This document shows, in pieces, positions 8,474 to 36,277 of a stretch of 64,000 bases of DNA. The stretch spans positions 62,001 to 126,000 of the forward strand of contig NZ_BCYZ01000004.1 in the NCBI RefSeq assembly GCF_001598455.1, given 5' to 3'. Below the pieces are notes generated by a model. That model made no database searches. It saw nothing but the letters and a program-made list of their open reading frames with translations, and was not told the origin of the DNA. Position 1 is the first letter of the stretch, and each line of letters starts with the position of its first letter. This DNA is from Sphingomonas pruni NBRC 15498. Lineage in GTDB: Bacteria > Pseudomonadota > Alphaproteobacteria > Sphingomonadales > Sphingomonadaceae. The translations under genes and the position numbers were made by a program.

Positions 8474-8663
8474 GGCCTCTCCCAACATTCCGCCCGCCCC
8501 TGATTTGCTATTGTCATATCGCTGAATTTCAATTCTATTTTTGACGCTGCTCTTGAATGACGCGGCGAACTCATCGAGTTGCTCTGGAAAGAAAGGCCGA
8601 AGCCTTCATGTCCGACCTCACCATCGCGCGGTGGAATCAAACGCCCGGGTCGCAACACGGCCA

Positions 8664-9680: not shown

Positions 9681-9735
9681 GCCAGGATTCTCCGATCTCG
9701 CGATATCCGCGCAGGCGCCGCGGTCGATGGTCGCT

Positions 9736-22573: not shown

Positions 22574-23704
22574 TCACTTGCCACGCAGGTAGATCCGGTG
22601 CGCATTCTTGTAGTAGATTTTGTCGATTACCGAGCGCGGTAGCCCCAATCCTTTCACGTCGGCTTTGATCTCTTCAATGCGCTGCGATTGTGGAGTTGCC
22701 AGATAGCGCCAGTCCGAGCGCCAGGCGTGATCGACCTCGGTCGCCAGATGGTCGATATCCACCGGCGGATTCTCGACCGGCTTGGCCGGATCGGGGGGAT
22801 TGTCGGCGACGTCGGTGCCGTACATCAGCCGGTCCTGATACTTGATGAAAAAGGCGCGGACCTTCCCGTAATCCTGGTTCGACTGATATTGGATTTGCGT
22901 CATGCGCGCGGCGAGATCGACGTTCGCGTTGGGAAAGCGATCGAGGAACGTCGCCAGCCGGTCGACGCTCCATTCCAAGCTGGCCATATGGGCGCCGACG
23001 AACGACAGTTTGGGATGAAAGGCGACGAAGCGGTCGCGCGCCGCCATCAGCATTTCGTAGCTCGGCTCCTCAGGGTGCAAATACATGTAATATTGCGGGT
23101 GATCGCGGAAATAGCCGCGATCATTGTCGGTCGTCATCTGGTCGAGCGGCAGCCAGCAATTGAGCGGCTCACCCTGATGCGCGATCAGCGGAATGCCGAT
23201 CTTCTCGATATGCGCCATGATGGCGTCGAAGCGTGGATCGTCGAGGAAGACGCGCTTGCCGTCCTGATCCTTCACGACCATGCCGATATTCTTCCACACC
23301 TTGACCGCGACCGCGCCCTTGGCGACCGCGGCGTCGATCGTGGCGATCGCTCGCTCGCTCCAACCCGGCTCGCCGAACCCGTCCATCGAGAAGGCAGTGG
23401 CAAAGTGGAAGATCTTCGGGTCCTGCGCTTTATGCTCCTCGGCAGCCTTCGCCTGCAATTTCAGCGGAGGAAAATCGGGATAGTCGACGTTGATCGACAA
23501 GAGCTCGAAACCGTCCTTGCGGGCGATGTCGATGAAGGCGGTCCGCGCGACATTGTCATGCACATGCGCATCGAATTTGGGGACACGGGCAAAATCGGCC
23601 TCGCTATAGGTCCCCTGACCGCTAGCCTGCGCCTGCACCGGCTGGGCGGAGGCCGCCGCGAGAGACAGGATCGACGCCATCATCAAGCCACCGTGCAACC
23701 GCAT
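22574..23704 (-). CDS. Secreted amidohydrolase-family protein (Amidohydro_2-like)
   Basis: A 376-residue metal-dependent hydrolase of the amidohydrolase superfamily (PF04909 type). The start at 23704 has GGGAG upstream and gives a signal peptide (residues 1-26, ending QPVQAQ). Metal-site candidates are H47 and H49 in FDAHVHD, a central His in LIAHQGEP, a His in FVGAHMASLEW, and the Asp in MYGTDVADN. Most relatives are cytosolic decarboxylases or lactonases; a periplasmic location is less common. It is divergent from the DeoR regulator gene, and TTTCATT boxes lie between them, so it is probably in the same regulon as the sugar locus. Reaction unknown. Confidence 0.82.
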   Translation of the reverse strand: MRLHGGLMMASILSLAAASAQPVQAQASGQGTYSEADFARVPKFDAHVHDNVARTAFIDIARKDGFELLSINVDYPDFPPLKLQAKAAEEHKAQDPKIFHFATAFSMDGFGEPGWSERAIATIDAAVAKGAVAVKVWKNIGMVVKDQDGKRVFLDDPRFDAIMAHIEKIGIPLIAHQGEPLNCWLPLDQMTTDNDRGYFRDHPQYYMYLHPEEPSYEMLMAARDRFVAFHPKLSFVGAHMASLEWSVDRLATFLDRFPNANVDLAARMTQIQYQSNQDYGKVRAFFIKYQDRLMYGTDVADNPPDPAKPVENPPVDIDHLATEVDHAWRSDWRYLATPQSQRIEEIKADVKGLGLPRSVIDKIYYKNAHRIYLRGK

Positions 23705-23966
23705 AACATCTCCCTGGATTTCATATGAAATGAAAGATATCAACCAAGGAAAGCCTAGCATTGACGAGATATTAGGCGCAAACCGTTTTATGTATGTTTC
23801 ATTATATATTGCCGCCGCGCGAAAGATCGTGCCCCTCGCCGACACGACGCGAACGTGAGTGCTTCAGCTTGAACAGCCCTGCGAGATGCCGCGCATTGCC
23901 CCATCACCGCAAGAAAACGCATGGAGACATCCACGCTTTGCCGCTAGAAATCGCGCAGGAGGCATG
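23705..23966. promoter_or_regulatory. Divergent promoter region with TTTCATT boxes
   Basis: This AT-richer interval separates the amidohydrolase and DeoR regulator genes. TTTCATATGAAA at 23719-23730 is a perfect palindrome. The minus strand across 23722-23735 reads CTTTCATTTCATAT, matching the TTTCRTTTYRY core known for E. coli AgaR sites. GTATGTTTCATT at 23792-23803 recurs exactly at 27772-27783. These suggest autoregulation of the DeoR-family gene and control of the amidohydrolase. Confidence 0.55.
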
Positions 23967-24737
23967 ATGCGGGATACAAGTCGGCGACGTCAGGAAATCA
24001 TCGGGATGCTGCAGGACCAAGGCAGCGTCCAGGTGCATTCCCTGTCCGAGCAGTTCCAGGTTTCCACCCAGACGATCCGTAAGGACCTGGCGTTCCTCGA
24101 GGCGCGCGGCGTGTCGGTTCGCTGCTATGGCGGCGCCGTCGCGGCGGGCGTGATCGGCGTGGCGGACGAAGATCCGGTCGACACCAAGCGCGTCCTGCAC
24201 ATAGCCGAAAAGGAGAGGATCGGCCGCCTCGCCGCCTCGATGGTGAAACCGGGCGAGGCGATCATTCTCGATTCGGGAACGACCACAGCGCAGATCGCGC
24301 GCTTCCTGCCCGACGATGCCGACATCGTCGTCCTGACCAACGACGCGGATATCCTGAGCCAGCTGGTTCACAAGAAGAATATCGAAATTGTCCTGCTCGG
24401 CGGGCGGTTGCGCCGCAAGAACATGGCCTTTTACGGCGGACAGACCGAGGCCGCGCTCGATAGCCTGCAGGTCGACCGCCTGTTCCTCGGCGTCGACGGC
24501 ATCGATCTGCAGCGTGGCATCACCACGCATTTCGAGGCCGAGGCCGCGCTCAATCGCAAGATGGCGCACGTCGCGCGCGAAGTCGTCGCGGTGACCGACA
24601 GCAGCAAGTTCGGCCGCACCTGCCTCCACCGGATCATGGGTATCGAGGAAGTGAACGTGCTGATCACCGATGACGGCGCGCCCGAGGAAAGCCTGGAGCA
24701 GGCAAGCAAGCTCGGCTGCGATATCCGTATCGCCTGA
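23967..24737 (+). CDS. DeoR/GlpR-family transcriptional regulator, AgaR-like candidate
   Basis: A 256-residue repressor with an N-terminal winged HTH (RRRQEIIGML, then VSTQTIRKDLAFLE and the family RGVSVRCYGGAV) and a C-terminal sugar-phosphate sensing domain with ILDSGTTTAQIA. ATG 23967 is selected because AGGAGG sits four bases upstream and the resulting N-terminus is the family standard; ATG 23964 would be too close. DeoR proteins of this type bind phosphorylated sugars. Its neighbours are homologues of aga catabolic genes, and AgaR-like TTTCATT boxes lie near its own start and the structural genes, so it is the likely local repressor. Assignment to AgaR rather than another DeoR regulator is inferred. 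Confidence 0.9.
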   Translation: MRDTSRRRQEIIGMLQDQGSVQVHSLSEQFQVSTQTIRKDLAFLEARGVSVRCYGGAVAAGVIGVADEDPVDTKRVLHIAEKERIGRLAASMVKPGEAIILDSGTTTAQIARFLPDDADIVVLTNDADILSQLVHKKNIEIVLLGGRLRRKNMAFYGGQTEAALDSLQVDRLFLGVDGIDLQRGITTHFEAEAALNRKMAHVAREVVAVTDSSKFGRTCLHRIMGIEEVNVLITDDGAPEESLEQASKLGCDIRIA

Positions 24738-24776
24738 TAGCCGGCCTAGCACGGCCGCGCATGTCTCCGCGCCAAG

Positions 24777-24799
24777 GGGCCGGACCGATCCGCCGGCCC
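24777..24799. terminator. GC hairpin between convergent genes
   Basis: GGGCCGG (24777-24783) pairs with CCGGCCC (24793-24799) across a 9-base loop, in the 76-base gap between the regulator and receptor stops. It could end transcription from both sides. There is no T-run, so the call is weak. Confidence 0.35.
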
Positions 24800-24813
24800 G
24801 GCCCGGAGATCGA

Positions 24814-27741
24814 TCAGAACCCGAAGCGAACCCCTGCCGTGAACGTGCGGCCATAGGATGTGTAGCCCGCGCCGACGCTGCTCCCGGTCCCGACCGCGCC
24901 AGACGCCCATACGATGTTGCGATCGCCGTTGAGATAGGTGCGGACGATCGAGTTGGTCAGATTGCGTCCCTCGACATACAATTTGATCCGCTTGGTGACG
25001 TTGAACGAAGCGGTCGCGGTCACCCAGTCATAGGCGCTGGCGATCGCGGGCATGCCATCGACTTCGGTGAAGTTCGCATAAACGAACGAGCTCGAATGGT
25101 CCCATGACACGCTGAGCGATACGGGCCCCTTTTCGTAGAACGGATTGATCGACCAGGTCGTCGGCGAGACGCCCGCCTCCTGCCCGGCGTTTTGGCCGTT
25201 GATCGTCGTCTGGCTCCAGGTGTGCGTGAATTGCGCGCGGATGCCGAAGCCGTTCTTCAGCATGTGCTGCCAGCTGAACTCGACACCATAAATCTTCGCA
25301 TTGTCGCCGTTGATCGGCTGAACCACGCTGTACAGCAGCGGCGCGCAGGGCTTGCCGTTGAAACAGCCGACCGCACCGATATCGACATTGTTGACCTCGA
25401 CCGAGGTAATGTCGTTGCGCAGTTTTTTGCCGAACAACGCGACCGAAACCATGTCGTTCTTATGGTAATACCATTCCAGCGACGCGTCGGCCTGCCACGA
25501 TTTGATCGGCTTCAGGTTCACGTTGCCGCTATAGCTGACGACATAATCCTGGTTGCTGCTGTTGTCGGTCTGGGTCGGCGCGAACTGATTGAGATTCGGC
25601 CGCGCGATCGTCTCGGCGACCGCCAGACGCAGGTGGAGATTGTCGGTGAAGCCATAATTGAAGTTCATCGACGGCAGCGGCAGCGTGTAGCTGCCATGCG
25701 CCGAGATCGGGGTCGCGTCCGAATATACGACTACCGCAGAGGCGGTCGGATTCGCAGTATCGGCGACGGTGACCGATATGATCTTGTTGATCGCGGTCGA
25801 GGCGGTCGTCTGCGTATTGACCAGGCGCAGGCCGATATTGCCGTTCCAGCGGCGTCCGCCGAACGAGGCCTCGACATAGCCGGACAAGGTGCGCTCGCTG
25901 ACGACGTAGGAGTTCACCGCGTTGAATTGCGGCAAGCTGTCGGCAAAATGATAGACGCCCTCTCCCGACGTGTAATTCGGCGTTCCGTCGAGCGACTTAA
26001 GACCGGCGAGCAGGTTCTGCGCGTTGATCGCCAGCATCGTGGTCGGAAAGCTGCCGCCCGCGCCAGAGAAGAAATTGGGGAAGTTGAAGGTCGAGATGAC
26101 GTTCTGGCCCATCGTCGCGAAAGTGATCGGTCCTGGCTGGCCGGGCATCGTATTGTAGAGCGAGCTGTATTGGCTGGAACCGTTGGTCCAGTCGTTGCTG
26201 ATGTCGCGCCGCGATTTGGACCGTTTGAGATAAGCGGCGCCAAAGCTGATGCTCTTCAGAATGCTGTTGTCGAACGTATAGGTGCCGTCCAGCTTGGCGC
26301 CGGTCACCGTATCCTTGATCGAGAAACCGGACAGCCCGTCATAGTGGGTGCTCCACAGATTCTGATTGTCGAGCTTGCCCGAGGCGAGCGCGGTCGCATA
26401 GTCCGATCCGTCCGGCAGCGTGACGCTGATGTTGGGCATCGCGTTCGGGTTGGCCGAGAAGGTCAGCGTGTTCTGATTGTAGGGGGTCGGTGAGACGAGC
26501 CCCGCGGTCAGGAAAGTGTCAGTCCCGCCTTCCGGCCGGTTCGCCTGCGAGCGATAGGCGTCGGCGCGGAACGACAGTCTCGACGAGGCATCCCACTGGA
26601 CATTGGCGCCGACCAGATAGGTGTCGACGACGCGGTGGATCGTCTGGTTGACGAGTTCGGGCGTGAAATTGTTGGTCGTGAACTTGGTGATGAAACCGTT
26701 CTGAACCGTCACGTTCGACCATTCGGGCAGGCCATTCTGGTCGTAGGTGAAGCCCGGGAAATAGGATTGGTTGTACGCGACCTGCGGGTCGTTGAGCTTG
26801 GTGTACATGCCGTCGAGCGTGACGTGCAGATTGTCCGCCGGGCGCCATTCCACCGTGCCGGTCAGCGCGAATCTCTTCTTGCGGTCGACTACCGAACCGA
26901 ACTGGATGCAGCACAAGCCGACCACCGGTTGCGCATTGGCAGGCGGCGGCGAATCGACCGTCGGCCCGACCGGCCAGACGCCCGGGCTGCTCGCATCCCA
27001 GGATGAGTAATTCAGCGCGTCGGTGCGGAACTTCTGGTCCGACCACACCACGCCGAGCAACGCGCCGAAGGTGCCCGAACTGTTGGTGTCGCTGATGAAG
27101 CCGGAGACCTTGTAGCCGCCGTAGCGCGACATCTGGTTGAAATTGCCTTCGGCGCGCGCGGCGATGTGGAAGCCGGTGTGATCGAACGGCCGTGCCGACC
27201 GCAGGTTGACGGTGCCGCCGATGCTGCCCTCGGTGGCGCTAGCCTGCGGCGACTTGAGGACGTCGGCGCCCGAAATCACGTCCGAGGGGAGGATGTCGAA
27301 CGCGAAGTCGCGGCCGTCATCGTCGGTCGCCAGGATACGGTCGTTGAGCGTCGTGATATTATATTGCGAGCCGAGGCCGCGGACGCTGACATACTGGCCC
27401 TCGCCACCCGTCGTGCGGTTGATCGTTATGCCGGTGATATGCTGCAGCGAGTCCGCCACGTCGCTGTCGGGGAAACGGCCCAGTTCGGTCGCGTTGACCG
27501 AATCGAGCACGACGGTGGCGCTGCGCTTGATCTCGACCGACTTGTCGAGGCTGCCGCGGATGCCGGTGACGACGATATCGTTTGCCGCCTTATCGGCCGC
27601 GGCGGTGTCGGACAGAGTGTCCGACGACTGAGCCTGCGGCGCCGGTTCGGGCTGGGTTTGAGCCATCGCCGCCACGGGGAGCGACGCCAGCGCCACGACG
27701 AAGATGCTGGCACCGGTACGCAGAAGAAGACGTGAGGCCAT
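24814..27741 (-). CDS. TonB-dependent receptor, oligosaccharide type (TIGR01782-like)
   Basis: A 975-residue outer-membrane receptor. The ATG at 27741 follows GAGGGGAAAATC, and the signal peptide is residues 1-27. The TonB region DIVVTGIRGSLDKSVEIKR, then FPDSDVADSLQ, and SVRGLGSQYNITTLNDR in the plug are typical of the Caulobacter/Xanthomonas-like receptors for plant and animal oligosaccharides. The barrel ends in FTAGVRFGF. It faces away from the GH36-like glycosidase operon with a 346-base shared control region. It probably imports the galactoside or amino-sugar glycan degraded by that operon; its box GTATGTTTCATT 30-42 bases upstream supports joint control. Confidence 0.95.
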   Translation of the reverse strand: MASRLLLRTGASIFVVALASLPVAAMAQTQPEPAPQAQSSDTLSDTAAADKAANDIVVTGIRGSLDKSVEIKRSATVVLDSVNATELGRFPDSDVADSLQHITGITINRTTGGEGQYVSVRGLGSQYNITTLNDRILATDDDGRDFAFDILPSDVISGADVLKSPQASATEGSIGGTVNLRSARPFDHTGFHIAARAEGNFNQMSRYGGYKVSGFISDTNSSGTFGALLGVVWSDQKFRTDALNYSSWDASSPGVWPVGPTVDSPPPANAQPVVGLCCIQFGSVVDRKKRFALTGTVEWRPADNLHVTLDGMYTKLNDPQVAYNQSYFPGFTYDQNGLPEWSNVTVQNGFITKFTTNNFTPELVNQTIHRVVDTYLVGANVQWDASSRLSFRADAYRSQANRPEGGTDTFLTAGLVSPTPYNQNTLTFSANPNAMPNISVTLPDGSDYATALASGKLDNQNLWSTHYDGLSGFSIKDTVTGAKLDGTYTFDNSILKSISFGAAYLKRSKSRRDISNDWTNGSSQYSSLYNTMPGQPGPITFATMGQNVISTFNFPNFFSGAGGSFPTTMLAINAQNLLAGLKSLDGTPNYTSGEGVYHFADSLPQFNAVNSYVVSERTLSGYVEASFGGRRWNGNIGLRLVNTQTTASTAINKIISVTVADTANPTASAVVVYSDATPISAHGSYTLPLPSMNFNYGFTDNLHLRLAVAETIARPNLNQFAPTQTDNSSNQDYVVSYSGNVNLKPIKSWQADASLEWYYHKNDMVSVALFGKKLRNDITSVEVNNVDIGAVGCFNGKPCAPLLYSVVQPINGDNAKIYGVEFSWQHMLKNGFGIRAQFTHTWSQTTINGQNAGQEAGVSPTTWSINPFYEKGPVSLSVSWDHSSSFVYANFTEVDGMPAIASAYDWVTATASFNVTKRIKLYVEGRNLTNSIVRTYLNGDRNIVWASGAVGTGSSVGAGYTSYGRTFTAGVRFGF

Positions 27742-27771
27742 GATTTTCCCCTCAATCAGCCGTAAATTTCA

Positions 27772-27783
27772 GTATGTTTCATT
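27772..27783 (+). promoter_or_regulatory. TTTCATT box (AgaR-like site)
   Basis: GTATGTTTCATT is identical to 23792-23803 in front of the DeoR regulator gene, about 4 kb away. It lies 31 bases upstream of the receptor start at 27741, within a likely promoter or leader. Exact 12-base identity in two control regions of the same locus is the evidence. Confidence 0.5.
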
Positions 27784-27912
27784 CTGTGGTTGGTTTTTGC
27801 GCAACGCAACCCTTTTTTGTCATATTATGGCAACGCCACTCTGAAAGAGCGCGCGATCGCGACTTCTTTGCAACAGCGGTCTCTGAATTATTATTCATAT
27901 ATAACAGATACT

Positions 27913-27929
27913 TATATGATAATCATATA
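27913..27929. promoter_or_regulatory. 17-base perfect palindrome, operator candidate
   Basis: TATATGAT-A-ATCATATA is perfectly symmetrical around 27921. It sits in the AT-rich centre of the divergent control region, about 160-170 bases from either gene. The sequence differs from the TTTCATT boxes, so a second regulator may act here. Confidence 0.4.
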
Positions 27930-27978
27930 GGCCCGAGACGCAGTTAAGGCCGCGCAGCAGCGGAAATTAAAACGAAAC

Positions 27979-28003
27979 AAAACGAGTGACCCGGGCTCGT
28001 TTT
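27979..28003. promoter_or_regulatory. Inverted repeat with TTTCGTT half-sites in the GH36 leader
   Basis: AAAACGAG (27979-27986) pairs with CTCGTTTT (27996-28003) around TGACCCGGG. The outer flanks extend the symmetry imperfectly: the left side read on the minus strand gives TTTCGTTTTAATTTC, and the right side reads TTTTCGTTTGCTTC. Both resemble the TTTCRTTT core of AgaR sites. It lies 85-109 bases upstream of the glycosidase start. Confidence 0.45.
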
Positions 28004-28087
28004 CGTTTGCTTCTCGGCGAATCCCTGTGCAAGCTCACTCACCAACATGCCCATCGCAAACCGGGCATCGCAAGCGGCGAGGGACCA

Positions 28088-30181
28088 ATGGCAGGCGCCA
28101 CACTGACACGCAGATCCACGCTGACCGGCCTGCTGTGCGGCACGACGGCAGTCATGGCGGGGTTGATCCCATCGGTCCCCGCGCTGGCCTTCACCGGCGC
28201 GGCGGCAACCGCCTCCGACGGCATCCTGACGATCGAGTTCGACGGCGCGCTTCGATCGCGGCTGTCGCGTGAAGGACGGCCGCTGACCGCGTTCGACAGC
28301 GGGGAAGGTGTGCGCCTGGCCGACGGGTCGGTGCTCGACCGATTCGTGCTGCTCGGCAATAGCGGAGCTGCGCCCATCGACGTGCGCGGCGGCGGCAAGC
28401 GCCACACCCTGCGCGGTGTAGCCGACGGGCGGCTCGAAAAGCGCATCGACCTGGTATTCCACCCCTCGCTGCCCGGAGCGGCACTGATGACGGTGCAATA
28501 TCGCAACCTCGGCAAGACGCCTTTGGTGATCGCGGCCTGGTGGTCGGCGGCGCATCAGCTGCTCGCGCACCCCGAGGGCGCCTGGACCTTTTCGGGCGCC
28601 TCGCATCCCGATCGCCGCGACTGGGTGCAACGCGTCCGCCACGATTTCCAGCAGCGCAATTACATGGGCATGAACGGCTCCGATTACGGCGGCGGGACGC
28701 CGGTCGCGGCGGTATGGCGCCCGGACGGCGGGCTGGCGGTTGGCCATGTCGAGACTGTCCCCAGGCTGATCGCGCTGCCGGTCGCATCGCAGCCGGGCGG
28801 CACGCGGATCGCGATCGAGGGCGACCAGCCGATCCTGCTCGCGCCGGGCCAGGCCGTAACCCTGCCCGAGACTTTCATCATGGCGCATCGCGGCGACCAT
28901 TTCGCGCCGCTCGATGCCTATCGCCGGATCATGGCCGAGCGCGGGCTCGCCGCCCCTGCGATCCCCGAATCGAGCTATGCGCCGATCTGGTGCGCCTGGG
29001 GTTACGAACGCAACGTCACGCCCGACCAGGTCTATGGCACGCTCGACAAAGCGAAGTCGGTCGGGTGCGAATGGGCAGTGCTCGACGATGGCTGGCAAAA
29101 GGCGATTGGCGACTGGGTCGCCGACACCAGCCGGTTCCCCGGCGGCGATGCCGACATGAAGGCGATGGCCGACCGCATCAAGACCTATGGCATGCGGCCC
29201 AAATTGTGGATCTCGCCCTTGTCGGCGACCCCGGCCAGCGACCTGATGCGCGACCATCGCGACATGCTGCTGCTCGATGCCAGCGGCGCTGCGCAGAATG
29301 TGAGCTGGTGGAACAGCTATACCTTGTGCCCCGCCTATCCGCCGACGGTCGACTATTTCAAAACCGTCATGCGCCGGATCGTCGGCGAGTGGGGGTTCGA
29401 AGGCCTCAAGATCGACGGCCAGGACCTCAACGGCGTCGCGCCTTGCTACAACCCCGCGCACAACCACAAGCGGCCCGAGGAATCGGTCGAGAAGCTCCAG
29501 GATTTCTGGAAGGCGATCTACGACACGGTGATCGGGATCAATCCGAACGCCAATGTCGAAATCTGCCCGTGCGGCGATTCGTTCGCCTTCTTCAACATTC
29601 CCGCGATGAACAACACGCCGGCGTCCGACCCCGAATCGTCATGGCAGGTACGCCTGAAGGGCAAGACCTTCAAGGCGATCATGGGCCCGTCCGCACCCTA
29701 TAGCGGCGACCATGTCGAGTTGAGCGACGGCGGCGACGATTTCGCATCGACTTATGGCATCGGCGCCATCCCCTCGACCAAGTTCACCTGGCCCAAGGAC
29801 ACCGACAAGCCGATCGACAAACTGCCGCCGGGCGGCTTCGTGCTGACCCCTGACAAGGAACGGCTGTGGCGCAAGTGGATCGCGCTCTATCGGCAGAATA
29901 TGCTGTCGAAGGGGCATTTTCTCGGCGAGCTCTACGACATCGGCTTCGACAAGCCCGAAGCCCATGTCGTCGCCGCCGACGGCAAGCTGCATTATGCTTT
30001 CTATGCCAAGACCTGGACCGGACCGATCGAATTGCGCGGACTCGGCAAGGGCTCCTACCGGCTGACCGACAGCTTCACCGGCGCGCCGCTCGGCACCGCC
30101 AGCGCCGCCAGCAACACAATCAACGCCAGTTTCGAGCGCTTCCTCGTCATCGAGGCAACGCCCGCAGGAGATGCCGCATGA
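28088..30181 (+). CDS. GH36-like alpha-galactosidase / alpha-N-acetylgalactosaminidase, Tat-exported
   Basis: A 697-residue clan GH-D glycoside hydrolase. ATG 28088 has GAGGG upstream and starts a Tat-like signal (TRRSTLTGLL, twin Arg at 8-9). An N-terminal beta-sandwich (about 45-290) precedes the barrel, which has VLDDGWQ (331-337) and GLKIDGQD (439-446), where D443 is the likely nucleophile. D514 in NNTPASDPE is a candidate acid/base. Clan members cleave terminal alpha-galactosyl or alpha-GalNAc residues; the downstream aga-like genes favour a GalNAc- or galactose-containing glycan. It overlaps the permease gene by four bases (ATGA). Periplasmic action is inferred from the signal. Confidence 0.87.
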   Translation: MAGATLTRRSTLTGLLCGTTAVMAGLIPSVPALAFTGAAATASDGILTIEFDGALRSRLSREGRPLTAFDSGEGVRLADGSVLDRFVLLGNSGAAPIDVRGGGKRHTLRGVADGRLEKRIDLVFHPSLPGAALMTVQYRNLGKTPLVIAAWWSAAHQLLAHPEGAWTFSGASHPDRRDWVQRVRHDFQQRNYMGMNGSDYGGGTPVAAVWRPDGGLAVGHVETVPRLIALPVASQPGGTRIAIEGDQPILLAPGQAVTLPETFIMAHRGDHFAPLDAYRRIMAERGLAAPAIPESSYAPIWCAWGYERNVTPDQVYGTLDKAKSVGCEWAVLDDGWQKAIGDWVADTSRFPGGDADMKAMADRIKTYGMRPKLWISPLSATPASDLMRDHRDMLLLDASGAAQNVSWWNSYTLCPAYPPTVDYFKTVMRRIVGEWGFEGLKIDGQDLNGVAPCYNPAHNHKRPEESVEKLQDFWKAIYDTVIGINPNANVEICPCGDSFAFFNIPAMNNTPASDPESSWQVRLKGKTFKAIMGPSAPYSGDHVELSDGGDDFASTYGIGAIPSTKFTWPKDTDKPIDKLPPGGFVLTPDKERLWRKWIALYRQNMLSKGHFLGELYDIGFDKPEAHVVAADGKLHYAFYAKTWTGPIELRGLGKGSYRLTDSFTGAPLGTASAASNTINASFERFLVIEATPAGDAA

Positions 30182-31119
30182 CCGCCACCCCCGCCCCCGC
30201 GCCAGCCGGCCGCGCCTGGCTGTTCCATGCGCTGGTTACCGTCGTCCTGTGGGGCATCTGGGGCGCCTTTTCGGATCAATCGTCCAAGCACGGCTTTCCC
30301 GACACATTGGTCTATTGCGTCTGGGCACTGACGATGATCCCGCCGGCGTTCATCGCGCTGCGCATGAGTGGCGGCAAGCTCGAGACGAGTCCGCGGGCGA
30401 TCACTTATGGCATGGCGGTCGGCCTGCTCGGCGCCGGCGGACAGATGGTGCTGTTCTACGCAGTGACGCGCGGCCCCGCCTATCTGATCTTCCCGATCAT
30501 CTCGCTCTCGCCGCTGGTCACGATCGTGATGTCCTACGCCTTGCTGCGCGAGCGCACCGGCAAACTTGGATTGCTCGGCATCGCGCTGGCGCTGATCGCG
30601 CTGCCGATCTTCAACTACGCCCCGGCCGACGGCAGCACGACCACCGGGTCGACCTGGTTCGTCCTCGCCCTGATCGTCATGCTGTGCTGGGGCGTGCAGG
30701 CCTATTTCATGAAGTCGGCCAACAACCACATGTCGGCTGAGGGCATCTTCTTCTACATGATGATCGCCGGGCTGTTGCTGGTGCCGGTGGCCTGGTTCCT
30801 GACCGACCGCTCGCATCCGGTGAACTGGGGCTGGGACGGCCCGGCGCTCGCTGCCGGGATCCAGGTGCTGAACGCGATCGGCGCGCTCACCCTCGTCTTC
30901 GCCTTTCGCTACGGCAAGGCGATCATCGTCGCGCCGCTGTCCAACGCCGGCGCGCCGCTCGCCACCGCGATCATCTCGCTGATCGCGCTCGGCGTGATGC
31001 CCGATACGCTAAAGATCGTCGGCCTCGCGCTTGCGCTCGCCGCCTCGGTGCTGCTCGCGGTCGAGCCCGATACCGCCGGCGAAACGACCGACGCGGCCGC
31101 CGAGCCGGCAGCGATTTAA
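30178..31119 (+). CDS. EamA/DMT-family permease
   Basis: A 313-residue inner-membrane protein with about ten TM helices in two EamA repeats, the first starting LFHALVTVVLWGIWGAF and the second near FVLALIVMLCWGVQAYF. Length and pattern fit drug/metabolite-type carriers. The start overlaps the glycosidase stop (ATGA), and AGGAG lies upstream. Lying between a periplasmic glycosidase and sugar catabolic enzymes, it is the best candidate for moving the released sugar into the cytoplasm. No PTS genes are present, consistent with import of unphosphorylated sugar and use of the kinase downstream. The sugar specificity is inferred. Confidence 0.85.
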   Translation: MTATPAPAPAGRAWLFHALVTVVLWGIWGAFSDQSSKHGFPDTLVYCVWALTMIPPAFIALRMSGGKLETSPRAITYGMAVGLLGAGGQMVLFYAVTRGPAYLIFPIISLSPLVTIVMSYALLRERTGKLGLLGIALALIALPIFNYAPADGSTTTGSTWFVLALIVMLCWGVQAYFMKSANNHMSAEGIFFYMMIAGLLLVPVAWFLTDRSHPVNWGWDGPALAAGIQVLNAIGALTLVFAFRYGKAIIVAPLSNAGAPLATAIISLIALGVMPDTLKIVGLALALAASVLLAVEPDTAGETTDAAAEPAAI

Positions 31120-31158
31120 TTTCATTATACATCATTTCCTTGTGTTTCATTTTCTTTC
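31120..31158 (+). promoter_or_regulatory. Two TTTCATT boxes before the agaZ-like gene
   Basis: TTTCATTATA at 31120-31129 matches 23797-23806 near the regulator gene. GTGTTTCATTTTCTTTC follows at 31142-31158 and fits the TTTCRTTT core with a trailing T-rich half. They fall in the 72-base gap between permease and agaZ-like genes, the only sizeable gap in this unit before the kinase stop, so an internal repressor-controlled promoter is likely. Confidence 0.55.
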
Positions 31159-31191
31159 AGTGTACGCGGATTGTCCATTCGAGGAGCAATC

Positions 31192-32475
31192 ATGAAGGCA
31201 ATTCGCGCCCTCGTCGCTGAGCACAAAGCGGGCAAACGCGTGGGCATCACCTCGGTATGCTCGGCCCATCCGCTGGTGATCGAAGCGACGCTGCGCCACG
31301 CGCTGGCGCACGACGCGCCGATCGCGCTGATCGAGGCGACATCCAATCAGGTGAACCAGGACGGCGGCTATACCGGCATGACGCCGGTCGATTATCGCGC
31401 GTTCGTCTCGGCCATCGCCGACCGGGTCGGCTATCCGCGGGCGCGGCTGGCGCTGGGCGGCGATCATCTCGGCCCCAACGCCTGGACCCGGCTCCCCGCC
31501 GAAGAAGCGATGGCCAAGGCCGAGATCATGGTGCGCGACTATGTCGCCGCCGGGTTCGGCAAGATCCATCTCGACTGCTCGATGAGCTGCGCCGACGATC
31601 CGGTGCCGCTGCCCGAACGCACCATCGCCGAGCGCGCCGCACGGCTGTGCGCGACGGCCGAGGCTGCCTATTCGGGCGATCCCGACGATGCGCCGAGCTA
31701 CATCATCGGTACCGAGGTTCCCGTGCCCGGCGGCGCTGCCGAAGATCTCGAGGAACTCGCCGTCACCACGCCCGACGCGGCGCTGGCGACGATCGCGATG
31801 CACCGCGACCTGTTCGCCGAGCTCGGCTTGTCGAGCGCCTGGGACCGCGTCATCGCGACCGTCGTCCAGCCCGGCGTCGAGTTCGATCACGACAAGGTCG
31901 TCGACTACGTCCCGGCAAAGGCGACCGCGCTGAGCGAGGCGATCGAGCCGGTCGAACACATCGTGTTCGAAGCGCATTCGACCGATTACCAGACCCCGTC
32001 CGCGCTCGCCGCTCTGGTACGCGATCACTTTGCCATCTTGAAGGTCGGCCCCGGCGTGACCTTTGCCTTGCGCGAGGCTTTGTGGGCGCTCGACGCGATC
32101 GAACGCGAGATGGTGGCGCCCGAGCGACGCGCCAATCTGCGCGACGTCGCGATCGAACGGATGCATGCCGAGCCAGGCAATTGGTCCAAATATTATCACG
32201 CCAGCGGTGCGGCGCTCGATTTCCAGCTTAACTACAGCTTCAGCGACCGCATCCGCTATTACTGGCCCGACAGTGCGATCACCGCCGCGCAGGACAAATT
32301 GTTTGCCAATCTGCGCGAGACCGTGCCGCCGCTGCCGCTGGTCAGCCAATACCTCCCCATCGCCTTTGCCGCGCACCGCGCCGGCCGCACCACGCTCGAC
32401 CCCGTCGACCTGGTCGCCGCCCATATCGACGCGACGCTCGACGCCTATCATGGAGCCTGCAATCCCAATGTCTGA
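31192..32475 (+). CDS. agaZ: AgaZ/GatZ/KbaZ-family protein (tagatose-bisphosphate aldolase subunit family)
   Basis: A 427-residue protein of the GatZ/KbaZ family, known as the non-catalytic subunit that stabilises the class II tagatose-1,6-bisphosphate aldolase. GAGGAG lies five bases before ATG 31192. Typical segments are GITSVCSAHPLVIEATLRHA, ATSNQVNQDGGYTGM, LGGDHLGPNAW, KIHLDCSM and KVGPGVTFALREALWAL. Length is normal (E. coli about 420-430). No KbaY/AgaY catalytic partner is in the window, so its role here is open: it may act with a partner encoded elsewhere or have its own activity. It overlaps the agaS-like gene by eight bases. Confidence 0.9.
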   Translation: MKAIRALVAEHKAGKRVGITSVCSAHPLVIEATLRHALAHDAPIALIEATSNQVNQDGGYTGMTPVDYRAFVSAIADRVGYPRARLALGGDHLGPNAWTRLPAEEAMAKAEIMVRDYVAAGFGKIHLDCSMSCADDPVPLPERTIAERAARLCATAEAAYSGDPDDAPSYIIGTEVPVPGGAAEDLEELAVTTPDAALATIAMHRDLFAELGLSSAWDRVIATVVQPGVEFDHDKVVDYVPAKATALSEAIEPVEHIVFEAHSTDYQTPSALAALVRDHFAILKVGPGVTFALREALWALDAIEREMVAPERRANLRDVAIERMHAEPGNWSKYYHASGAALDFQLNYSFSDRIRYYWPDSAITAAQDKLFANLRETVPPLPLVSQYLPIAFAAHRAGRTTLDPVDLVAAHIDATLDAYHGACNPNV

Positions 32476-33610
32476 CCTCAACGCTGCCCCGAAAGCGGCG
32501 GCCGACGGCGCCGAGCCCTGGACGCGCCGCGAAATCTTCCAGCAGGCGACCACGTTGCGAGCGACCCAGGCGTTGCTCGTTGACGAGCAGGGCGCGATCG
32601 ACGCGTTCATCGCGCCCCTGCTCGCGAAACCCGACCTACGCATCGTGCTGGCCGGGGCCGGCACCTCGGCGTTCATCGGCGAATGCCTGGCGGCGACGCT
32701 GGCGCAGGCGACCCGGCGCCGGGTCGATGCGGTGCCCACCACCGACATGGTCAGCACGCCCGACCTCTATCTCGAAGCGCGGACGCCGACCCTGTTGGTG
32801 TCGTTCGGCCGCTCGGGCAACAGCCCGGAAAGTATCGCCGCGATCGATCTCGCCGATGCGCGCGTTGCCGACGTCCACCACCTGATCATCACCTGCAACG
32901 CCGACGGCGCATTGGCCAAACGGCGGGGCGACGACGGCTATGTCGTGGTATTGCCGGAAGCGACCCACGATCGTGGTTTCGCCATGACCTCCAGCTTCTC
33001 GGCGATGACCTATACCGCGCTGGCGATCTTCTCGGGCATCGCCGCGCTCGGCGACCGCAACGAGCGGATAGCGCAGGCTGTCGAGGCGGTCCTGGCCGAC
33101 ACCGAAACCGCGATGGCGGCGCTCGCCACGCGCGGGTTCGAGCGCGTCGTCTATCTCGGTAGCGGTCCGTTCCAGGGACTGGCGCGCGAAGCGGCGCTGA
33201 AACTGCTCGAGCTCACCGACGGCGGACTGGTGACGATGCATGACTCGACGCTCGGCTTCCGTCACGGCCCGAAGACGATCGTCAACGACCGCACCCTGGT
33301 GGTGGCGTTCCTTTCAAACGATCCCCTGACCCGCGCCTATGACCTCGACCTGATCGCCGAACTGCGCGCGGACAAGGTCGCGGGCGCCGTGCTGGCGGTG
33401 TCCGCCCAGGACATCGCGGGTGAGACGTTGAGAGTGCACGGGCTCGAAACGGCAGCCGACAGCGACCTGCTGTTCCCCTATATCGTGCCCGCGCAGCTGT
33501 TCGCGCTCCACGCCTCGCTCGGTCGCGGCCTGACCCCCGACACGCCGAACAAGGCCGGGACGGTCAGTCGCGTCGTCAAGGGCGTGCGCATCCACAGCGT
33601 GGGCGCATGA
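32468..33610 (+). CDS. agaS: AgaS-like SIS-domain sugar isomerase/deaminase
   Basis: A 380-residue protein with two SIS domains, the size of E. coli AgaS. Motifs are LAGAGTSAFIGE, VSFGRSGNSPES (sugar-phosphate binding), GFAMTSSFSAMTY and MHDSTLGFRHGPK. Characterised AgaS proteins deaminate and isomerise galactosamine-6-phosphate to tagatose-6-phosphate. It is cytoplasmic. It overlaps agaZ upstream by eight bases and the kinase downstream by four (ATGA), so the three proteins should be made together. Its presence, with the adjoining kinase, is the main reason to read the locus as amino-sugar rather than plain galactose catabolism. Confidence 0.9.
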   Translation: MSDLNAAPKAAADGAEPWTRREIFQQATTLRATQALLVDEQGAIDAFIAPLLAKPDLRIVLAGAGTSAFIGECLAATLAQATRRRVDAVPTTDMVSTPDLYLEARTPTLLVSFGRSGNSPESIAAIDLADARVADVHHLIITCNADGALAKRRGDDGYVVVLPEATHDRGFAMTSSFSAMTYTALAIFSGIAALGDRNERIAQAVEAVLADTETAMAALATRGFERVVYLGSGPFQGLAREAALKLLELTDGGLVTMHDSTLGFRHGPKTIVNDRTLVVAFLSNDPLTRAYDLDLIAELRADKVAGAVLAVSAQDIAGETLRVHGLETAADSDLLFPYIVPAQLFALHASLGRGLTPDTPNKAGTVSRVVKGVRIHSVGA

Positions 33611-34551
33611 CCACGACCCGCTATTTCCTCGGCGTCGACGGCGGCGGCACCAAGACCGAGTTCGTCTGCATCGACGGCGCCGGCAACGTTGTGGCGCGGC
33701 AGATCGAGGGGACGACCTATCATCTCCAGGTCGGGCTCGACGGCGCGGTGCGGGCGCTCGAGTCCGGGATCGCCGGCATCTGCGCGCAGATCGGCATCGA
33801 GCCCGCCGGGCTGGCCTTCACCTTCTTCGGCCTGCCCGCCTATGGCGAGGACAAGGCGATCGACCCGCTGCTCGACCAGCATTGCCGCCGTCTGCTCGGC
33901 CATGACCGCTATCGCTGCGGCAACGACATGGTCTGCGGCTGGGCGGGATCGCTCGCCTGCGCCGACGGCATCAACCTCGTCGCTGGCACCGGGTCGATCG
34001 GCTATGGCGAACGGCAAGGCCGCGTGGCGCGGTGCGGCGGCTGGGGCGAAGTGTTCGGCGACGAAGGCTCGGCCTATTGGATCGCGATCCAGGGGCTCAA
34101 CGCCTTCACCCGAATGAGCGACGGCCGCTTGCCCAAGGGGCCGCTTCATGACGCGTTCCGACGGCGGCTCGGCCTCGAGAACGATCTCGACATCTGTGCC
34201 AGGATAATGGGCGAGCAAGGCCTGGAGCGAGACGAGATTGCCGGCCTGGCACCAATTGTCGCCGAAGCTGCGGCGGCGGGCGATCCCGCCGCGATCCGGA
34301 TCCAAGACCTTGCCGCCGAGGAACTCGCGGCCATCGCCGAAGCACTGCGCGCGGAACTTGGGTTCGGCCCGGACGAAGACGTACCCTTGTCCTGGTCGGG
34401 AGGCGTGCTCGCCAACGATGCGTCGATCCGGGCCCGGCTGGAGGCACGGCTGCGGCAAGTCGGTCCGTACCGGTTCGTCGCGCCGCTGCACTCGCCCGCT
34501 TACGGCGCGGCGCTCTATGCCGCGCACCAGGTCGGTGTGGCTCCGGCCTGA
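33607..34551 (+). CDS. BadF/BadG/BcrA/BcrD-family sugar kinase (amino-sugar kinase candidate)
   Basis: A 314-residue ASKHA-fold kinase related to N-acetylglucosamine kinases. The N-terminal phosphate-1 loop DGGGTKT is at 11-17, NLVAGTGSIGYG is the second phosphate motif, and GGWGEVFGDEGSAYW is highly typical of GlcNAc kinase-type members. Kinases of this kind in proteobacterial GalNAc pathways phosphorylate GalNAc at O6 when uptake is not by PTS. It fits the non-PTS permease in this operon. The start ATG 33607 overlaps the agaS stop. Activity on GalNAc versus GlcNAc or another sugar is not decided by sequence alone. Confidence 0.88.
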   Translation: MTTTRYFLGVDGGGTKTEFVCIDGAGNVVARQIEGTTYHLQVGLDGAVRALESGIAGICAQIGIEPAGLAFTFFGLPAYGEDKAIDPLLDQHCRRLLGHDRYRCGNDMVCGWAGSLACADGINLVAGTGSIGYGERQGRVARCGGWGEVFGDEGSAYWIAIQGLNAFTRMSDGRLPKGPLHDAFRRRLGLENDLDICARIMGEQGLERDEIAGLAPIVAEAAAAGDPAAIRIQDLAAEELAAIAEALRAELGFGPDEDVPLSWSGGVLANDASIRARLEARLRQVGPYRFVAPLHSPAYGAALYAAHQVGVAPA

Positions 34552-34578
34552 GTAGCCATCGGGCAAGAGGGATCGATC

Positions 34579-34716
34579 ATGCGCTTCTGGCCCGAGATCA
34601 TGAAGCCTGACGGCTGGCTCTATTTTGCCGACACCTATGCCGACGCGTTGAGCAGCGGAATCGAATCGTGCGTCCGCTCAGCGGCGCGCGTCGCACAGGA
34701 GATTGCCGATGCCTGA
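34579..34716 (+). CDS. Small ORF, 45 residues, coupled to the following gene
   Basis: ATG 34579 has AGAGGG at good spacing and opens a 45-codon frame (N-terminus MRFWPEIMKPDGWLYFADTY, C-terminus VAQEIADA). It begins 28 bases after the kinase stop and ends with TGA eight bases inside the next gene (ATGCCTGA), the same overlap length as agaZ/agaS. The ribosome site, coupling and amino-acid composition (aromatic-rich N-terminal half, amphipathic C-terminal half) argue it is translated. It has no signal peptide or clear TM helix. I do not recognise the family. It could be a small accessory protein or a leader controlling translation of the hydrolase that follows. Confidence 0.6.
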   Translation: MRFWPEIMKPDGWLYFADTYADALSSGIESCVRSAARVAQEIADA

Positions 34717-36277
34717 CCTCAAGCGCCGCGATTTCTTCAAGGCCGGCGCCGTCGGATTGGCTGCGGCAGGCCTCGCACCACGTGCCCTTGGCGCGGACTA
34801 TCTGGAGCATCTGTGGGAAGGTTACGATTGGGGCGGCGGACCGGCGGTTTCCGACCGCCTCAACCAGGGGCCGTTCACCAATTACGGCGCCGACGCCAAT
34901 GCTCCGGGCGGCGAGGTCGGCATGGCGACGTCGCCTTCGCGCGATATCGTACCCAATTACGGCATGGGCCTGACCGCCTATGTCTCGGGCGACACCGGCC
35001 CTCCCCGCCTGCCCGGCCAGTCGCTCGAACGGTCGATCGAGGACATCGTCAAACTGCCCTTCACGCAGAAGATCTATATCCGCCCGAACTGGCGCGAGGT
35101 GCAGACGCGCTCCGGCAGGCTCGACCTGCCCGATTGGTGGCGGATCACCTTCGACCTCGCCCGGCAATATGGCAAACGCGTCGGTTTCCGCATCATGCTG
35201 GAAAACCCCGATTTCGCCGCGCCCGGCATGCCCGACTTCCTGATGGAAAAGGTGCCCTACGTACCGCTCAAGGGCAGCTGGAAGGGCGATACCGCTCAGG
35301 TCCGCTATCGCAAGAAGCACGCGATGCCCCGCTACGATCACCCGGCTTATCAGGCCGCGTTCGGCGAGCTCAACGCCCTGCTCGCCGACCGATACAATGG
35401 CAGCGCCGATATCGAATATATGGACACGATGATGTACGGCTTCTGGGGTGAGGGACACACCTGGCCGTTCGAAGGCAATTACTTCCCGAGCAACCTGGTC
35501 GCCGAACAGACTTGGCTCAAGATGCTCGAGGCGCAGCTTACCTGTTGGACCAGGACCCCGCTCGTCACCAACACGCAGCCCGATTTCAACAACGTCGGCA
35601 ATGCCGCGATGCTCGACCGCACGGTGCGCAGCGGCAATTGGATCCGCAGCGACACGATCTTCATCGAGACCACGCAGATCGAGGCGCTGAGCAACCGTCC
35701 CGCCTGGGCAGCGGCAATCAGCGAAGTGCCGATGACCACCGGAGATGCGGATCAGCTCGGCATCGTCGACGGCGTCACCTATAACGAGCAGGTCGCCGCA
35801 CACGTGCTCGCGGTGGGTGCGAACTATTGGTCGATCTGGAACTGGCACAACGAATCCGCCGCGCATGTGCTCAGCTATTACGACAAATATCCGGAAGTGA
35901 TCGACCACGCCGCGCGGCGGATCGGCTATCGCGTTTATCCGGCTTTCATCTGGCCCTTCGAGCGCGACGGCAGTCGCGGCATGATTGTCGGGCTGGCCAA
36001 TGACGGCGTCGCGGGCGTTCCGGGCGTACTGCGATTGACGCTCAAAGACGAACGTGGGGCCACGCTCGCCAGCGGTTGTCTGGACCCCGGCTTTCCAAAA
36101 CCTGCCGGCATTAGACAGGCAATGCTAAGCTGGACCGGCGACAAAGACTGGACCGGATTGCAATTGTTCGCTGAACTGGAGGTCAAGGGCGTACGCCATC
36201 CTGTGCGCTGGGCGTGTCGGCAGGCGCTCAACCCAAACGGGTCGCTCACCCTGCGGCAAAATCTCCGGAGTTCCTGA
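34709..36277 (+). CDS. Tat-exported DUF4832-like TIM-barrel protein, putative glycan-active enzyme
   Basis: A 522-residue protein. ATG 34709 has AGGAG seven bases upstream. The N-terminus is a Tat signal (KRRDFFKAGAVGLAAAG, twin Arg at 6-7), cleaved near APRALGA. The body resembles DUF4832-containing proteins with a barrel-like region carrying YIRPNWREVQTR, YMDTMMYGFWGEGHTW and FIETTQIEAL, rich in acidic and aromatic residues as in glycosidases, then a C-terminal beta-sandwich (about 415-515). No reaction is established for this family to my knowledge. As the last gene of the amino-sugar operon with a second Tat signal, it may trim the same glycan as the GH36-like enzyme. It is an attractive candidate for new chemistry. 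Confidence 0.75.
   Translation: MPDLKRRDFFKAGAVGLAAAGLAPRALGADYLEHLWEGYDWGGGPAVSDRLNQGPFTNYGADANAPGGEVGMATSPSRDIVPNYGMGLTAYVSGDTGPPRLPGQSLERSIEDIVKLPFTQKIYIRPNWREVQTRSGRLDLPDWWRITFDLARQYGKRVGFRIMLENPDFAAPGMPDFLMEKVPYVPLKGSWKGDTAQVRYRKKHAMPRYDHPAYQAAFGELNALLADRYNGSADIEYMDTMMYGFWGEGHTWPFEGNYFPSNLVAEQTWLKMLEAQLTCWTRTPLVTNTQPDFNNVGNAAMLDRTVRSGNWIRSDTIFIETTQIEALSNRPAWAAAISEVPMTTGDADQLGIVDGVTYNEQVAAHVLAVGANYWSIWNWHNESAAHVLSYYDKYPEVIDHAARRIGYRVYPAFIWPFERDGSRGMIVGLANDGVAGVPGVLRLTLKDERGATLASGCLDPGFPKPAGIRQAMLSWTGDKDWTGLQLFAELEVKGVRHPVRWACRQALNPNGSLTLRQNLRSS

Follow-up and report, generated by a model that had tools for sequence, protein, structure and literature searches.

A putative AgaR-controlled locus for alpha-linked galactosamine in Sphingomonas pruni, with an exported enzyme of an undescribed family

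The 64,000-nucleotide stretch of the Sphingomonas pruni NBRC 15498 genome analysed here (contig NZ_BCYZ01000004.1, positions 62,001 to 126,000; hereafter the window, whose own numbering is used) carries nine genes at 22574-36277. Judged from sequence, they are on balance best read as an AgaR-controlled scavenging locus for glycans containing alpha-linked galactosamine (GalN), probably in its free-amine form. The predicted route leads from alpha-galactosaminide to GalN, GalN-6-phosphate (GalN-6-P), tagatose-6-phosphate (Tag6P) and fructose-6-phosphate (F6P). Oligosaccharides would be taken up by a TonB-dependent receptor, and GalN would be freed in the periplasm by exported hydrolases, namely an enzyme resembling glycoside hydrolase (GH) family 36 and a protein that we call OrfX, with GH27 and GH2 enzymes in one relative. 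An EamA-family carrier would then bring GalN into the cell, a BadF-family kinase would convert it to GalN-6-P, AgaS would deaminate and isomerise this product to Tag6P, and AgaZ would epimerise Tag6P at C4 to F6P, which would enter central metabolism without a tagatose-bisphosphate step. In this scheme we infer the substrates, the direction of transport, the specificity of the kinase, the role of the epimerase in this organism and the roles of OrfX and of an exported amidohydrolase. The locus appears to encode a known pathway in a form that does without the customary deacetylase, PfkA-type kinase and KbaY and includes an exported enzyme of an undescribed family. A narrower version is put forward more tentatively and is open to real doubt: a dedicated route for de-acetylated alpha-GalN polymers (fungal galactosaminogalactan, bacterial Pel), in which the GH36-like enzyme and the new OrfX family free GalN for EamA import and for kinase, AgaS and 4-epimerase, with no PfkA, deacetylase or tagatose-bisphosphate step.

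An earlier note on this DNA had read these genes as an aga-type locus for amino sugars, in which import is TonB-fed, hydrolases are exported, and a non-phosphotransferase permease is followed in the cytoplasm by a kinase and an AgaS deaminase. This picture was right in kind, and the gene set is genuine and conserved. All eight genes that it named were recovered by Pfam and NCBIfam searches and in the translations, the same set recurs in other genomes, and family models bear out the DeoR-type regulator (as AgaR), the oligosaccharide-type TonB receptor, the permease (as EamA/DMT), AgaZ and the BadF kinase (Table 1). AgaS matches its model over the full length and scores under the cut-off. The note's GalNAc/galactosamine-type glycan (GalNAc, N-acetylgalactosamine) can be narrowed to alpha-linked GalN through the kinship with FpGalNase and the lack of NagA/AgaA described below, and its mention of a galactoside is the weaker option. 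It missed the amidohydrolase, of which position 22574 is the end, and overlooked that its second exported enzyme, OrfX, matches no known family.

The GH36-like enzyme and the proposed cytoplasmic route

The closest sequence in the PDB to the GH36-like protein is 9awt (241.7 bits, E 1e-70), entitled 'A type blood alpha-D-galactosamine galactosaminidase'; 9ayu and 8x1b rank next, and the first match other than FpGalNase is an alpha-galactosidase at 58.2 bits (E 4e-15). By this comparison FpGalNase is far nearer to the protein than any of the other solved alpha-galactosidases listed. That the locus serves galactose or alpha-galactosides is a very improbable alternative: many alpha-galactosidases belong to GH36 and many to GH27, and a LacZ-type GH2 gene lies in the cluster of one relative (L041), yet galactose use is not known to involve AgaR (here above its cut-off), AgaS-type SIS proteins or BadF kinases, all of which are present, and the listed alpha-galactosidases are far more distant than FpGalNase.

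We identify 9awt with FpGalNase by its name and by its residue numbering, which is shifted by a constant 26 relative to that of the published enzyme (PMC11762096, excerpt). FpGalNase of F. plautii is described there as acting on de-acetylated GalN after a separate deacetylase, with the active-site residues W317, D346, D347, W387, K461, D463, Y464, C513 and D532. Seven of these nine are identical in the HMMER alignment, where W317, D346, D347, W387, K461, C513 and D532 correspond to W304, D333, D334, W374, K441, C495 and D514. An eighth, D463, falls on D443 when the K-x-D motifs are matched manually, and D443 likewise pairs with the K-x-D aspartate of alpha-galactosidase 6lcj. All eight counterparts are invariant in 17/17 homologues (the window and those 16 of the 26 OrfX loci described below that have a GH36 match). 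The enzyme thus points to alpha-linked galactosamine, although members of one family can differ in exact specificity, and the free amine is favoured because FpGalNase acts after a separate deacetylase. The Tat (twin-arginine translocation) export claimed in the earlier note has in its favour a twin-arginine N-terminus seen by eye in the translation; Pfam gave no Tat match at E 0.001, the query being an over-long open reading frame.

In the textbook route, Tag6P is first phosphorylated by a Tag6P kinase and then cleaved by KbaY, with KbaZ as a subunit. Gene deletion and expression have shown the GatZ and KbaZ proteins of Escherichia coli, to whose family AgaZ belongs, to be Tag6P/F6P 4-epimerases that convert F6P to Tag6P, with modelled residue roles (PMC11907403, excerpt). 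AgaZ residues C23, E48, D91, H92, E175, H262 and K284 match, by motif, GatZ C20, E44, D87, H88, E171, H257 and K279. Searches made family by family, as for all genome-wide absences given here, found no PfkA-type kinase (PF00365; 9/14 control genomes positive) and no class II aldolase of the KbaY type (PF01116; 11/14 positive) in the genome. Because both matches are missing and AgaZ keeps the seven residues, AgaZ is most likely a Tag6P 4-epimerase feeding F6P.

AgaS finds the AgaS-like structure 3c3j as its best PDB match (E 1e-93); in E. coli, AgaS is the proposed GalN-6-P deaminase/isomerase (PMC3668189, excerpt). The nearest solved relative of the BadF kinase is the N-acetylmuramic acid/N-acetylglucosamine (GlcNAc) kinase 8zo3 (E 1e-23). 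With the genome's own NagA as query, which found itself as a control, tblastn at E 0.01 detected no agaA/nagA-type gene in the window, in the 26 OrfX loci, in seven further cluster stretches (L040-L046), or in stretches from Subdoligranulum (L057) and Burkholderia (L058). GalN is favoured over GalNAc because no such gene lies in the locus or in the Burkholderia stretch.

Operator-like boxes suggest putative control of the locus by AgaR. The 64 kb contain four copies of the pattern TTTCRTTWT where 0.44 would be expected, and none of 100 shuffles reached that count; all four copies are intergenic within the locus. The agaZ boxes are kept in several relatives, and related TTTC boxes stand in the receptor/GH36 region of 6/6 aligned. 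No common box was seen across relatives in the agaR/amidohydrolase region, where the alignment is too divergent to show one. An AgaR consensus TTTCRTTT is known for E. coli, although no paper listed in the literature searches showed this string.

Recurrence of the gene set and comparison with known systems

A scan with OrfX yielded 26 loci, many of which end before the cluster does. Matches above 100 bits were found for the GH36-like enzyme in 16 of them, AgaZ in 11, the receptor and EamA in 10 each, AgaS in 9, the amidohydrolase in 8, the kinase in 7 and AgaR in 6; the amidohydrolase match in L024 has only 33% identity. The eight-gene core (receptor, AgaR, amidohydrolase, GH36, EamA, AgaZ, AgaS and kinase) is present in 6/6 larger stretches, G039, G125, G281, G294, G285 and G053. 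Four of these (G039, G281, G294 and G285) are taken as the same genomes as L003, L007, L005 and L012, respectively, and are not counted as additional evidence. In G281 the contig break falls inside an amine oxidase gene, with the cluster and OrfX on separate contigs. OrfX is missing from G125 and G053, which do have the core, and the G125 stretch also holds a LacZ-type GH2 gene and one of GH27 type (PF16499). Outside the sphingomonads, plasmid pla_2 of Burkholderia arboris (L058 6300-14010) carries GH36, EamA, AgaZ, AgaS, BadF and AgaR-like genes at 39-57% identity, and its 26 kb gave no match for the receptor, the amidohydrolase or OrfX. Bins of Acidobacteria and Calditrichaceae/KSB1 (L013, L014, L018, L021, L022) have OrfX with GH36 and no aga genes in the stretch.

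Among 296 genomes of the order, taken in a single draw, 5 have OrfX, 15 PF08013 (AgaZ), 36 PF00365, 57 PF01116 and 7 this GH36. The seven GH36 genomes are exactly the seven PF08013 genomes of the window's family, and the other eight PF08013 genomes, from two other families, have no GH36. All five OrfX genomes have PF08013. Among the seven GH36 genomes, PF00365 is found in none and PF01116 in one (G294). These co-occurrences are the shared inheritance of one locus, and are to be read as consistency and not as seven trials. In loci L006, L010, L011, L012 and L025, the TonB receptors are of two types, one window-like (62-98% identity) and one 34-39% identical, which suggests different imported glycans.

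Leyn et al. reportedly treated the Shewanella GalNAc pathway in 2012, according to papers that cite them. This non-phosphotransferase pathway comprises OmpAga, AgaP, AgaK, AgaA-II and AgaS (PMC2996990, excerpt). As in Shewanella (PMC2996990 and PMC12118421, excerpts), a TonB receptor, a non-phosphotransferase permease, a kinase and AgaS take the place of the phosphotransferase system (PTS); unlike Shewanella, the window locus lacks agaA and has the FpGalNase-like GH36, the amidohydrolase and OrfX, and its carrier is of the EamA family whereas the Shewanella AgaP-II is said, in the excerpted text, to belong to the GGP family. With the E. coli aga/gam regulon it shares AgaR, AgaS and a KbaZ-type protein; it differs in having no KbaY in the genome, no AgaA in the locus and no PTS gene among the locus genes (Pfam scan), and in adding exported hydrolases and the TonB receptor. 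The F. plautii pair FpGalNAcDeAc/FpGalNase (PMC11762096, excerpt) has a homologue here in the GH36-like enzyme, with 8/9 reported residues when the manual alignment is included; the loss of Y464 and the predicted link with Aga enzymes inside a Gram-negative cell set the locus apart. AgaZ shares family and residues with the GatZ/KbaZ 4-epimerases, including the Agrobacterium and Sinorhizobium examples cited with them (PMC11907403, excerpt); it differs from those cases in having AgaS and kinase genes beside it and in belonging to a genome with no PfkA-type match.

The biofilm polysaccharides galactosaminogalactan and Pel both contain GalN, and the enzymes that have been treated in connection with them are endo-galactosaminidases (GH114, GH135, GH166 and GH191; PMC12054363, excerpt). 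GalN-rich fungal galactosaminogalactan or bacterial Pel is a possible common substrate class, although OrfX, unlike these enzymes, matches no Pfam family. The genome has no match to GH114 (PF03537), the only one of the four families searched. No published sphingomonad galactosamine locus was recognised among the top-listed open-licence papers. If the proposed reading holds, a bacterial route consuming freed GalN would complete the picture beside the endo-galactosaminidases. It would also give the GatZ/KbaZ 4-epimerase a physiological setting and an EamA-family carrier a role with sugars, and would provide environmental FpGalNase homologues for enzyme work along with a candidate new glycoside hydrolase family.

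Points against the reading and its alternatives

Several observations weigh against the reading of the locus as an AgaR-controlled GalN route. In the GH36-like enzyme, HMMER places a gap after the lysine that pairs D463 with Q445 instead of D443, Y464 becomes glycine (G444) in the hand alignment, and 8x1b, near-identical to FpGalNase in alignment, is deposited as an alpha-galactosidase. AgaS is under the TIGR02815 cut-off and the kinase far under that of the NagK_SO3507 equivalog (85 bits, cut-off 370), so that both specificities are only putative. The box pattern was selected after inspection of these same intergenic regions. Among the OrfX loci, 10/26 are without GH36 and 15/26 without AgaZ, some of them at contig ends. 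Of those without GH36, L002, L007, L019, L020 and L023 are near contig or locus ends, and the GH36 of the L007 genome sits on another contig, L043; L015, L016, L017, L024 and L026, which extend for several kb beyond OrfX in one direction or both, argue against an obligatory pairing of OrfX and GH36. To these points are added a NagA gene, candidate enzymes of a tagatose-bisphosphate route and the recurrent amidohydrolase, each of which bears on a particular alternative.

NagA is encoded above its cut-off on contig 25, which makes use of GalNAc feasible. Because NagA can stand in for the missing AgaA in E. coli agaA mutants (PMC3668189, excerpt), it could serve GalNAc-6-P. In this main rival account, the kinase would make GalNAc-6-P, and NagA encoded elsewhere would deacetylate it before AgaS acts. 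The solved relatives of the kinase fit such a route, four of the five being named GlcNAc-type kinases and the fifth a hexokinase. However, the NagA gene shares its stretch with a TonB receptor and a GH20 gene and looks like part of a separate GlcNAc locus, there is no NagA-type gene in the window or the 34 other cluster stretches, and the amidohydrolase belongs to another family. Since FpGalNase, moreover, is paired with a separate deacetylase and takes de-acetylated GalN (PMC11762096, excerpt), we regard the GalNAc route as rather unlikely.

A tagatose-bisphosphate route, with a PfkB-type kinase and a class I aldolase acting on Tag6P and AgaZ reduced to an accessory subunit, is kept open by a PfkB-type hexose kinase above the TIGR03168 cut-off and by a partial class I aldolase match (PF00274) above its cut-off over 171 of 349 positions. 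The kinase, however, lies on another contig and far under the lacC cut-off (83.1 against 409.55 bits), the genome offers AgaZ no KbaY/GatY partner (PF01116), and AgaZ keeps the epimerase residues. This route seems improbable to us, and 4-epimerisation by AgaZ is preferred.

The exported amidohydrolase belongs to the conserved gene set, being kept in 6/6 clusters of other sphingomonad genomes (L040, L041, L043-L046), and its recurrence is unexplained by a plain GalN route. Searches by sequence of the PDB and NCBIfam returned nothing. Its AlphaFold2 model (predicted local distance difference test, pLDDT, 73.5) resembles Amidohydro_2 structures with Z up to 20.5 and a root-mean-square deviation (rmsd) of 2.9 over 242 residues. 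H45, H47, K133, H174, H237 and D296 are invariant over 14 rows, and we infer a metal-ligand role for them. The fold search retrieved Amidohydro_2 enzymes with several different reactions; therefore no function can be assigned. A two-step periplasmic variant, modelled on the F. plautii pair, would have the amidohydrolase deacetylate GalNAc-glycans before GH36 frees GalN. The enzyme looks exported and would fill the agaA gap, it recurs in the sphingomonad clusters, and it lies beside GH36 and OrfX in the Calditrichaceae locus L018. Against this, the nearest folds are mostly decarboxylases, lactonases and hydratases of Amidohydro_2, which is not known to include a deacetylase, and neither the Burkholderia stretch nor the Acidobacterial loci with GH36 and OrfX (L013, L014, L022) has an amidohydrolase match. 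We give the two-step variant little chance beside direct release of GalN from de-acetylated glycans.

OrfX, gene layout and an amine oxidase remnant

OrfX is a candidate TIM-barrel hydrolase that may represent a new glycosidase family. Apart from Tat-signal models, the family has no Pfam or NCBIfam match beyond a GH42 hit at E 0.05 and a GH127 hit at E 0.1, each in a single one of 25 members. The earlier note's second Tat enzyme is partly upheld, the window member scoring 18.6 bits, under the cut-off of 22.7, and 20/25 members matching the Tat model at E<=1. Against the PDB, nothing credible was found by sequence with either the single sequence or the profile. The AlphaFold2 model, built from an alignment of 25 rows (the window and 24 of the 26 loci, L002 and L026 being left out), has a pLDDT of 76.4, a predicted template modelling score of 0.81 and weak loops, and comprises a beta/alpha barrel followed by a C-terminal beta domain. 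The best 50 VIA-align matches listed have Z 17.3-19.7 and rmsd 3.4-4.1 over 266-297 residues, and include GH14 beta-amylases at the top, GH42 and GH35 beta-galactosidases, GH5-type enzymes and others. GH14 lies outside clan GH-A. Foldseek whole-chain superpositions are poor, with a TM score of about 0.36, and only the barrel class is clear from the model. Two glutamates invariant in the 25 rows, E248 (in YGFWGE) after strand 4 and E339 on strand 7 of the model, are candidates for the catalytic acid/base and nucleophile.

PF16116 (DUF4832) matches none of the 25 members, and one DUF4832 protein sharing GFWGE is remotely related to OrfX (hhalign 97.4%). A protein of the Firmicute Subdoligranulum variabile is nearer, at 27% identity and 99.9% in profile comparison. 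Within 10 kb of this homologue (L057 8773-21322) are two ROK kinases, a SIS protein, a class II ketose-bisphosphate aldolase and another DUF4832 protein, a setting that speaks for a connection of the wider family with amino sugars or ketose phosphates. OrfX itself is found in Sphingomonadales, Acidobacteria, KSB1/Calditrichaceae and gammaproteobacterial bins.

A few OrfX loci deserve separate mention. An Acidobacterial one (L024 5052-9672) is adjoined by a weak AgaS-like SIS protein, a PfkB kinase and a DeoR-type regulator. The reading frame is in two pieces in the bin locus L026 (10116-11262). On two Polymorphobacter plasmids the match spans only residues 199-522; in one of these, from a lichen (L056 11626-14975), it lies downstream of reverse transcriptase and metallopeptidase-domain annotations and is probably a broken copy.

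The genome that holds the window (as contig 4) measures 4.48 Mb in 168 contigs and is reported 100% complete. By OrfX, its nearest named records are Sphingomonas mali, S. asaccharolytica and one Sphingomonas bin, at 90-91% identity. The type strain S. mali NBRC 15500 has genes for the receptor, GH36, EamA, AgaZ, AgaS, the kinase and OrfX. Six genes, from GH36 to OrfX, form a run on the + strand, preceded by the amidohydrolase (-), AgaR (+) and the receptor (-). Start codons were picked by eye, and agaR has a further in-frame ATG at 23964. Where the earlier note had four overlapping junctions, three were found, at 30178-30181 (4 bp), 32468-32475 (8 bp) and 33607-33610 (4 bp); EamA and AgaZ are separated by 72 bp, and the kinase and OrfX by 157 bp. 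The flanks look unrelated, with an AraC-type regulator and an MFS carrier on the left and a GMP synthase on the right.

Table 1. Features of the locus, in window coordinates
Feature	Position	Strand	Support
Amidohydro_2 metal-dependent hydrolase, signal-peptide-like N-terminus by eye	22574..23704	-	PF04909 E 1e-14
Box TTTCRTTWT, agaR/amidohydrolase region	23797..23805	+	
agaR, DeoR-family repressor	23967..24737	+	NCBIfam AgaR equivalog 304.8 bits, cut-off 260; DeoRC and HTH_DeoR
TonB-dependent receptor, TonB-Xanth-Caul subfamily	24814..27741	-	TIGR01782 544.7 bits, cut-off 310
Box TTTCRTTWT, receptor/GH36 region	27969..27977	-	TTTCGTTT also at 28001
GH36-like enzyme, predicted exported alpha-galactosaminidase	28088..30181	+	Pfam Melibiase E 7e-16
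EamA/DMT-family permease, predicted inner-membrane amino-sugar carrier	30178..31119	+	PF00892 E 1.5e-26, two stretches
Two boxes TTTCRTTWT before agaZ	31120..31153 (31120, 31145)	+	
agaZ (GatZ/KbaZ family), predicted tagatose-6-phosphate 4-epimerase	31192..32475	+	TIGR02810 619.9 bits, cut-off 568.8
agaS, predicted SIS-domain galactosamine-6-phosphate deaminase/isomerase	32468..33610	+	TIGR02815 full length, 451.8 bits, cut-off 529.2
BadF-family kinase, predicted amino-sugar kinase	33607..34551	+	PF01869 E 1e-50
Flavin amine oxidase remnant, last 48 codons	34570..34713	+	tblastn; blastn against relatives
OrfX, predicted Tat-type TIM-barrel hydrolase, undescribed family	34709..36277	+	AlphaFold2 model, profile comparison

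The space between the kinase and OrfX holds a remnant with 75% identity by tblastn to residues 438-485 of the flavin amine oxidase of L003. In L001 and L003 (around 7800-10000), a full oxidase and a cytochrome c-domain gene stand between kinase and OrfX, and blastn to these two loci matches both flanks of about 2 kb missing from the window; the genome has no other close copy of the oxidase. A flavin amine oxidase (PF01593) adjoins OrfX in 9/26 loci, on the downstream side in L014 and L022 and on the upstream side in the other seven, and a cytochrome c-domain gene precedes it in six of the nine. The oxidase/cytochrome pair thus appears to be an accessory deleted in this strain, and the substrate of the oxidase is perhaps an amine-bearing part of the glycan.

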